From Liolophura sinensis (taxonomy: Eukaryota > Mollusca > Polyplacophora > Chitonida > Chitonidae), in NCBI RefSeq assembly GCF_032854445.1, contig NC_088295.1, positions 46,797,385-46,861,384 on the forward strand: a stretch of DNA of 64,000 bases, written 5' to 3'. Numbering within the stretch: position 1 is the stretch's first letter; each line of letters begins with the position of its first letter. The notes beneath the pieces are model-generated. The model saw nothing but the letters and a program-made list of their open reading frames with translations, ran no database searches and was not told where the DNA came from. Below, one piece after another: positions 43,598 to 46,500 of the stretch. A program made the translations under genes and the position numbers.

Positions 43598-46500
43598 TAT
43601 AAAATCCTTAAATGTCTTAACTGCACAAAAGAAATTAAATGCATCTCCTTCAACAGTCCTAAAGTTATTTATTTGATTTATTTGACTGATGTTTCACGCT
43701 GCACCCAAGAATATTTCACTTAAACAATGGCAGGCAGCATTGTGATGGGAAGAAACCAGGAAGAGCCTATGGGAAAACCCTCAACCATCCACAAAACAGC
43801 GCTCAAAGCCTGCATGCTACGTTATGGTAAATGGACAAACATATCTGCCTCATGGTTACACAAAATAAATTTAGGGTGACGTGTAATCAGTTTCGTGTTT
43901 AGCAAAGTGGCTGCCATAAAAACAAACATCTTACTTCAAAGTAAGACATGTTTTATTTCACCAGTATGCGCTACTTACATGTATGTCTGACTGCATGTAG
44001 TAAACTCTGTTTAATATTGCTACTGGTTTAGCTATTTCGTCTCCCATGGAATTTTGTAATTTCAACCTTTTCGCATGTTTGCAAGGTGTTTTTTCAAGCA
44101 TATTCTGAAGGCATTATTTTCTGCAGACTGATACAATTATACATTTTGCAAAGCCATGAAATTGGTTAATCCAACAAATGTAGTTTTATCTTCAAAATCA
44201 ACTTAAATATGTGCCTAAAATTTCACTGAAAGTTTTAAAAAGGTTGAGGAATTAGGGTAGCATGAAGTTTCACGTCGGGGGTGTTTGGGGGGTGGGAAAC
44301 TACTCAGGTGCCTGACATACCTCCTGAGTTGAGCCCACAACCAAACCAGTGAGAGATCTTCAATAGCATAATTAAATCAAAATTTATCAAAAAGGTTTAC
44401 CTACCTGTATATCAGAGGAAAGCTGGAGCAGGTTAAACATTGTCTGCATGTCTATCAATGACTGACGGATCTCTCTGTACACAGAGCCCAGAAAGTTCAG
44501 GGGTAGAGAAAGCTGGAACAGCAGGCCATTCACCATCACCAGATCTCCCACAGTCATTGTACCTGTGGGTGAAGATAACACATCAGTCACAGACACCTTC
44601 AGTTACACAGAGCTGGAACAGCAGGCCATTCACCATCACCAGATCTCCCACAGTCATCGTACCTGTGGGTGAAGATAACACATCAGTCACAGACATTGTC
44701 AGTTAAACAGAGCTGGATCAGCAGGCCATTCACCATCATCAGATCTCCCACAGTCATTGTATCTGTGGGTGGAGATAACACATCAGTTACAGACATTGTC
44801 AGTTACACAGAACTGGAACAGCAGGCCATTCACCATCACCAGATCTCCCACAGTCATTGTACCTGTGGGTGAAGATAACACATCAGTCACAGACACTGTT
44901 AGTTACACAGAGCTGGAACAGCAGGCCATTCACCATCACCAGATCTCCCACAGTCATTGTACCTGTGGGTGAAGATAACACATCAGTCACAGACACTGTC
45001 AGTTACACAGAGCTGGAACAGCAGGCCATTCACCATCACCAGATCTCCCACAGTCATTGTACCTGTGGGTGAAGATAACACATCAGTCACAGACACTGTT
45101 AGTTACACAGAGCTGGAACAGCAGGCCATTCACCATCACCAGATCTCCCACAGTCATTGTACCTGTGGGTGAAGACAACACATCAGTTACAGATACTGTC
45201 AGTTACACAGAGCTGGAACAGCAGGCCATTCACCATCACCAGATCTCCCACAGTCATCGTACCTGTGGGTGAAGACAACACATCAGTTACAGATACTGTC
45301 AGTTACACAGAGCTGGAACAGCAGGCCATTTACCATCACCAGATCTCCCACAGTCATTGTACCTGTGGGTGAAGATAACACATCAGTCACAGACACCTTC
45401 AGTTACACAGAGCTGGAACAGCTGGCCATTCACCATCACCAGATCTCCCACAGTCATTGTATCTGTGGGTGAAGATAACACATCAGTTACAGACATTATC
45501 AGTTACACAGAGCTGGAACAGCAGGCCATTCACCATCACCAGATCTCCCACAGTCATTGTACCTGTGGGTGAAGATAACACATCAGTTACAGACACTGTC
45601 AGTTACACAGAGCTGGAACAGCAGGCCATTCACCATCACCAGATCTCCCACAGTCATTGTACCTGTGGGTGAAGATAACACATCAGTTACAGACACTGTC
45701 AGTTACACAGAGCTGGAACAGCAGGCCATTCACCATCACCAGATCTCCCACAGTCATTGTACCTGTGGGTGAAGATAACACATTAGTCACAGACATTGTC
45801 AGTTTTTTTTTTTTTTTTTTTTTTGATTGTTGTTATTTCACTTATGCCACAGCGGCCAGCATTATGGTGGGTGGAAACCAGGCAGAGACCGGGGGAAACC
45901 CACGACCATCCGCAGGTTGCTGGCAGACCTTCCCACGTACGGCCGGAGAGGAAGCCAGCATAAGCTGGTCTTGAACTCACAGCAACCGCATTGGTGAGAG
46001 GCTTCTGGGTCACTACACTGCGCTAGCGCGCTAACCGACTGAGCCATGGTGGCCCCAACATTGTCAGTTACACAGAGCTGGAACAGCAGGCCATTCACCA
46101 TCACCAGATCTCCCACAGTCATCGTACCTGTGGGTGAAGACAACACATCAGTTACAGATACTGTCAGTTACACAGAGCTGGAACAGCAGGCCATTCACCA
46201 TCACCAGATCTCCAACAGTCATTGTACCTGTGGGTGAAGATAACACATCAGTTACAGACACTGTCAGTTACACAGAGCTGGAACAGCAGGCCATACACCA
46301 TCAGCAGGTCTCCTACAATCAATGTACCTGTCAGTGTAGCTGTCATAAGTTACAAACATTGTCAATTACACAGAGCTGGAGCGGAAGACACTGCTGCTGC
46401 CACTAAAGTATCGTGCCAAAGACACCAGACATGACATGTCACATTATACTCAAACCAGGTCAAACAGTTCTGTTTCCTTGCTCTAACCTCTCAGTACTGA

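Follow-up and report, generated by a model that had tools for sequence, protein, structure and literature searches.

The closest described counterparts of the array reported here are the mirages of amphioxus, minisatellite-like tandem duplications of an intron/exon boundary described in Adh3 and in the globin genes BflGb6 and BflGb9 (PMC3087553), as well as in troponin C and PGBD5 (PMC3902484). Repeat units within a mirage share 81-100% identity, and units at the edge of an array escape homogenisation (PMC3087553). Boundary duplications have also been connected with intron gain. In the potato RdRp gene, one duplication that took in the 3' part of an intron, with its branch site and tract, and the 5' part of the exon after it gave rise to both an additional intron and an additional piece of exon (PMC4974935). 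In human segmental duplications, novel introns can likewise come from tandem repeats located at exon-intron boundaries (PMC2812944). An acceptor directly juxtaposed with a donor (AG/GT) is also found at the ratchet points of recursive splicing (PMC8605326). Such points are described in long introns.

In Liolophura sinensis, the intron that precedes coding exon 9 of ABCB7 on the minus strand carries, besides the authentic boundary, 15 further copies of a unit of 100 bp. The unit consists of the last 48 bp of the intron, acceptor AG included, followed by 52 bp from the start of exon 9 (Table 1; positions refer to the window, the whole 64,000-nucleotide stretch of DNA that was analysed). This array is a real, large, mirage-type minisatellite, and such arrays recur in this genome. 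As in the amphioxus mirages, tandem units span the boundary and hold both exon and intron parts (PMC3087553). Splice signals are present in many copies, the inner units evolve in concert, and the outermost unit is excluded, all of which are mirage traits. The differences are that the host is a mollusc, that a SINE lies inside the array, and that the ABCB7 array is known from DNA alone. The unit is also shorter, at 100 bp versus 150-160 bp in amphioxus, and copies are more numerous, with 16 units in ABCB7 and up to 29 at other loci versus 6 in one BflGb6 haplotype and 3 in the other. Most ABCB7 units carry AG/GT, as in the AGGT model of intron gain (Rogers), but unlike in potato RdRp the copies are all intronic as judged from DNA. 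Intron 8, which contains the array, is only 2084 nt long and thus is not a long intron of the kind in which ratchet points are described, and the donor half of its AG/GT junctions is weak. In human IFI6 (6-16), a short-unit minisatellite gives rise to multiple splice donors, and the copies are used in mRNA; both minisatellites multiply splice sites, with the donor affected in IFI6 and the acceptor in ABCB7.

Among the papers listed in searches of the open-access literature, none concerned a molluscan boundary minisatellite to judge by title or the start of the abstract, and none listed for ABCB7 in molluscs concerned such an array by title. The remark in the initial annotation that no ABCB7 case had been described is not contradicted by that literature, although the kind itself had been described, as amphioxus mirages (PMC3087553). 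What is new within these searches is the phylum and the scale, as mirages now reach a second animal phylum as far as the literature searched shows.

Table 1. Features of the ABCB7 array and of exon-edge duplications at other ABC loci. Positions are those of the window unless a contig of the genome (G000) is named.
Feature	Position	Strand	Remarks
ABCB7 coding region	38479..59853	-	14 coding exons, 684 aa; based on splice signals and homology
ABCB7 coding exon 9, authentic	44405..44562	-	158 nt; cacccacag/GTACAA ... ATACAG/gtaggt; spliced protein aligns to solved ABCB7 chain
ABCB7 coding exon 8	46647..46821	-	donor CAG/gtaggaac faces all 16 acceptors
Unit k0, innermost	44511..44610	-	authentic acceptor and first 52 nt of exon 9; exon half equals consensus at 52/52
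Decoys k1-k12, exon-proximal block	44611..45804	-	exon starts 44662 to 45762 in steps of 100; SINE cuts k12
Remainder of k12, then decoys k13 and k14	46058..46275	-	decoy exon starts 46127 and 46227
Unit k15, outermost	46276..46373	-	98 bp; AG kept, decoy exon start 46327; poor acceptor score
TCCAGCT, 7 bp just outside array	46374..46380	-	matches 44511-44517 in exon 9
SINE with A-tail (T run on plus strand), in intron half of k12	45805..46057	-	253 bp
Target-site duplication, left copy	45793..45804	.	same 12 bases at 46058-46069
Target-site duplication, right copy	46058..46069	.	12 bp
Other copies of the array SINE, examples	22638-22853, 40437-40655, 54151-54371		window alignments
L045/L056	G000 C11, about 2416400-2419300		91-bp period, 28 or more donor copies including real site; 27 with GT
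L043/L057	G000 C9		donor-side array, 29 copies including real site; 26 with GT
L054/L055	G000 C6		donor-side array, 22 copies including real site; 21 with GT
L038			single exon-edge duplication, donor side
L053			single exon-edge duplication, acceptor side, 75% identical

The gene had been named ABCB7 from the start, and this identification is borne out by a solved chain of that name, which matches the product at residues 56-679 (E 9.8e-274); we take this chain, as well as 7vgf, to be the human protein. When the authentic exon 9 acceptor is used, the spliced frame of 684 codons has no internal stops. The best database proteins are abalone ABCB7 (71% identity), and all 17 species-named entries in the first 20 of the 120 homologues listed (7990 found) are from molluscs. 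The exon bearing the duplicated boundary, called exon 10 in the initial annotation, is exon 9 of 14 by count of coding exons on the minus strand. The peptide it encodes is the ABCB7 norm, with its motif recovered in 120/120 homologues listed (of 7990 found) when up to three changes are allowed and the identical 21-residue form present in 31 of these 120. We considered whether a leucine in k15 might be ancestral, the real exon having changed to methionine, and rejected this, as methionine is found in 17/17 named molluscs in the first 20 homologues. We likewise rejected boundary duplications elsewhere in ABCB7: for the remaining 13 exons the window self-comparison revealed none, and the only overlap it gave with any of them was a 71%-identical match reaching 5 bp into exon 14.

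Tandem Repeats Finder reports the array as two blocks of period 100, one at 44511-45804 with 12.9 copies (95% match, score 2357) and one at 46058-46380 with 3.2 copies, a repeat signal far beyond chance. Together with the unit alignment, this confirms the 16 units originally counted, that is, the authentic unit k0 and 15 decoys (k1-k15), each with an acceptor and 52 bp of coding exon and with its inner boundary inside the coding exon. The claim that every unit is exactly 100 bp long holds for the 15 units k0-k14 once the SINE is removed but not for k15, whose intron part is 46 nt rather than 48 and which differs from the consensus by 16 mismatches and a 2-bp gap. The near-identity and homogenisation proposed for the units are likewise evident in k0-k14, which differ from one another by a mean of 4.3 per 100 bp (105 pairs). 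Two pairs, k7/k13 and k10/k11, are identical, the former lying on opposite sides of the SINE, and the distance between two units did not predict their similarity. At the exon-side edge, the exon half of k0 is not diverged. A 400-bp array query against the 609-Mb assembly (632 contigs) returned five matches, all at this locus, in a search that skips very common words.

When the SINE and one copy of its target-site duplication are taken out, the empty site is exactly 100 bp, so that the array is older than the SINE. Expansion and homogenisation had been described as recent, and this now needs qualification, as the array predates its SINE and k15 is clearly older than the other units. The interruption by the SINE itself had escaped the earlier reading of the array. 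Within the window, the SINE has 21 other alignments at 75-92% identity, one of which is the T run only, and there are at least 48 other matches in the genome. Inspection by eye alone suggested motifs resembling an A box and a B box, and ARAGORN called no tRNA within it. The only tRNA that ARAGORN called is a tRNA-Lys (ctt) on the minus strand at 34084-34156. Of its 73 bases, 50 are repeated with 94% identity at 32893-32942, so that the called tRNA may form the head of a SINE derived from a tRNA. Elsewhere in the window, a 77-bp unit is repeated 18.6 times at 4526-5951, where two frames are open from stop to stop for more than 500 codons, and 17346-17608 is a perfect two-copy tandem duplication of 131 bp that includes SINE-like sequence.

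These features suggest how the array could have arisen. The breakpoints point to an initial duplication of 100 bp, comprising 48 bp from intron 8 and 52 bp from exon 9, between two copies of TCCAGCT, one intronic and one exonic, and this pair is likely the microhomology at which it occurred. Unequal exchange and conversion would then have spread and homogenised the copies, leaving the outermost unit to decay; the observed pattern of copies fits such internal homogenisation with decay at the free edge. The SINE entered one unit after the array had formed, as its empty site shows. A further decayed unit outside the array was sought and rejected, as the score of the 94-nt flank was matched or beaten by 36/300 shuffles and, without gaps, by 1056/10000. 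Minisatellites are common in this genome: when contig C1 was sampled at even spacing in 20 pieces of 10 kb, seven held an array of period 40 or more with at least five copies. The ABCB7 array is probably without a function of its own, a tolerated product of a minisatellite-rich genome.

The gene must nevertheless be spliced past the decoys, as the AG is kept in 15/15 and the sequence of the real acceptor from -20 to +1 is matched exactly by 9/15. With a small scoring matrix built from the 12 remaining ABCB7 acceptors, the real site scores 10.15, nine decoys score the same, five score 7.8-8.4, and k15 scores -1.0. Of the 959 AGs that lie in introns but not in the array, 0.4% attain the score of the real acceptor. 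A branch-site-like ctgat motif lies at the expected distance in 13/15 decoys. Because nine decoys score identically, site strength cannot single out the real acceptor, and the rule that proximity to the exon decides is for this reason an assumption here. The real acceptor alone is joined to the whole, intact 158-nt exon with a strong donor, which has the strongest U1 pairing among the 13 real ABCB7 donors (-13.4 kcal/mol), and exon definition would favour it. Use of a decoy would instead yield an exon of at least 258 nt with a premature stop. In conceptual splicing, 15/15 decoys lead to such a stop, which lies 178 nt or more ahead of the next junction and entails loss of the ATPase domain, in agreement with the initial annotation. 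A stop after decoy readthrough does exist as that annotation proposed, but reading continues past CVT: 14/15 decoys read LCVTDSVCD or a close variant and end at codon 391, and from the decoy just upstream of the SINE the frame continues into SINE sequence and ends at codon 453. Stops that far before the next junction trigger nonsense-mediated decay by the usual rule, and decay of decoy-spliced mRNA is to be expected and should remove it. The gene would thus still work because its authentic acceptor is the exon-proximal one. Taken as a whole, it is likely that the array is a neutral mirage-type minisatellite that arose by boundary duplication and is tolerated because the exon-proximal acceptor wins.

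Several other explanations bear on these same observations. The 15 acceptors could bind U2AF and SF1 and thereby slow the removal of intron 8 or divert transcripts to nonsense-mediated decay, so that the amount of ABCB7 is tuned with copy number as the dial. The retention of every decoy AG, the nine exact matches to the real acceptor, and the premature stops reached from every decoy are all in keeping with such a role, as is the lower variability of the exon halves by site counts, where 11/728 sites differ from the consensus in the exon halves of k1-k14 versus 24/672 in the intron halves (Fisher p 0.016). This difference could mean constraint and counts against a neutral reading, but the excess is inflated because variants shared among units are counted repeatedly; with each distinct change counted once, there are 8 in the exon halves (k1-k14) and 11 in the intron halves (k0-k14). 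The 8 exon-half changes comprise 5 nonsynonymous and 3 synonymous, near the random 74:26 (26% of all possible single changes being synonymous), and the exon half of k15 has 4 and 2, respectively. We read the decoy exon halves as showing no clear constraint. Similar arrays at other ABC genes of this genome also imply that the feature is not special to ABCB7. The suggestion of the initial annotation that the array slows or regulates splicing is therefore not supported, and a regulatory role, while possible, is in our view improbable.

Alternatively, splicing into a decoy might be self-correcting, with the transcript re-spliced from a regenerated CAG/GTACAA to the next AG, so that all routes end in normal mRNA. 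A donor would indeed be regenerated, since exon 8 ends in CAG, and an acceptor fused to a donor as AG/GT is kept in 13/15 decoys, the exceptions being k2 and k9 (AG/AT). The junction CAG/GTACAATG pairs with U1 at -7.1 kcal/mol, more strongly than 3/13 real donors, and just 25 of 1102 intronic GTs reach -7 kcal/mol against a background from which the array was excluded. However, the authentic exon also begins with GTACAA, and re-splicing could therefore skip exon 9 itself; positions +4 to +6 of the junction donor do not fit the donor consensus; and exons starting in GT follow 3 of the 13 ABCB7 acceptors, so that AG/GT may be accidental. Given these objections, we find re-splicing of this kind very unlikely. 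That the array, or its number of copies, is a product of misassembly is conceivable in that there is only one assembled haplotype, but units holding many distinct variants, a SINE with its target-site duplication, a decayed edge unit, and the length of the contig (C1, 96.4 Mb) make this extremely unlikely. None of these alternatives displaces the neutral minisatellite as the preferred reading.

The recurrence of such arrays was examined at other ABC genes. An ABC_membrane search of the same genome gave 49 hits, one of them ABCB7, and 34 of the other 48 were tested, largely in E-value order, as batches of 26 hits on 20 loci and then 8 hits. Several of the hits are members of gene clusters and hence not independent of one another. 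With exon edges set by homology, frame, and splice signals, 5/34 of these ABC exon hits had a duplicated exon part outside the exon; all five were among the first 26, and neither the next eight nor a 35th tested later showed an exon-edge duplication. Three of the five are the donor-side arrays of Table 1, whose copies were counted by fuzzy pattern. In L045/L056, 25 copies read AAG/GTGAGTG, with U1 pairing of -11.8, and the array reaches the end of the DNA examined. In four of the five cases it is the donor edge that is duplicated, and their situation may not be that of the ABCB7 acceptor array. A random control was positive in 19/200 pseudo-exons from 200 kb of contig C1, compared with 5/34 ABC exons (Fisher p 0.36), and 9/200 versus 3/34 had at least three alignments (p 0.39), in samples that are small and not independent, the control segments having been drawn ten per piece from 20 pieces. 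The control required repeats of at least 40 bp and the exon test had no minimum length, although the five exon cases, at 45 bp and longer, meet the same limit. Exon edges are thus not visibly spared by such duplications. Apart from this census, a PF00118 search of the genome (50 hits) revealed short chaperonin-family exon hits within open frames of 458 to 779 codons (contigs C1:72038329-72039651, C1:56789306-56789461, C6:51811805-51811960, and C6:7824721-7824954), one frame apparently being common to two exon hits about 980 bp apart; such frames might reflect arrays within introns whose unit is a multiple of three nucleotides long.

A broader formulation would hold that exon-edge arrays are a genome-wide class here, present at the acceptor or the donor edge of perhaps several percent of exons and tolerated since splice choice tracks exon proximity almost absolutely, with AG/GT in ABCB7 additionally allowing splicing steps of 100 nt to erase stray decoys. 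We put this forward only tentatively and think it rather unlikely in full; if true, selection would hardly see the expansion of such arrays, and the edge of the coding exon would evolve in concert with a minisatellite.

Whatever their extent, these exons pose an unusual problem for splicing, as the right site must be chosen among many near-identical decoys, with 9 of 15 decoy acceptors equal to the real one in ABCB7 and 22-29 donor copies at three other exons. Reed and Maniatis reportedly used test constructs in 1986 in which a splice site was duplicated in tandem, asking how the spliceosome picks among equal sites. Arrays of the ABCB7 type are natural counterparts of such constructs inside a conserved gene, and RNA of this single species could show directly whether exon proximity alone decides splice-site choice. 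The edge of a coding exon here belongs to a homogenising minisatellite.
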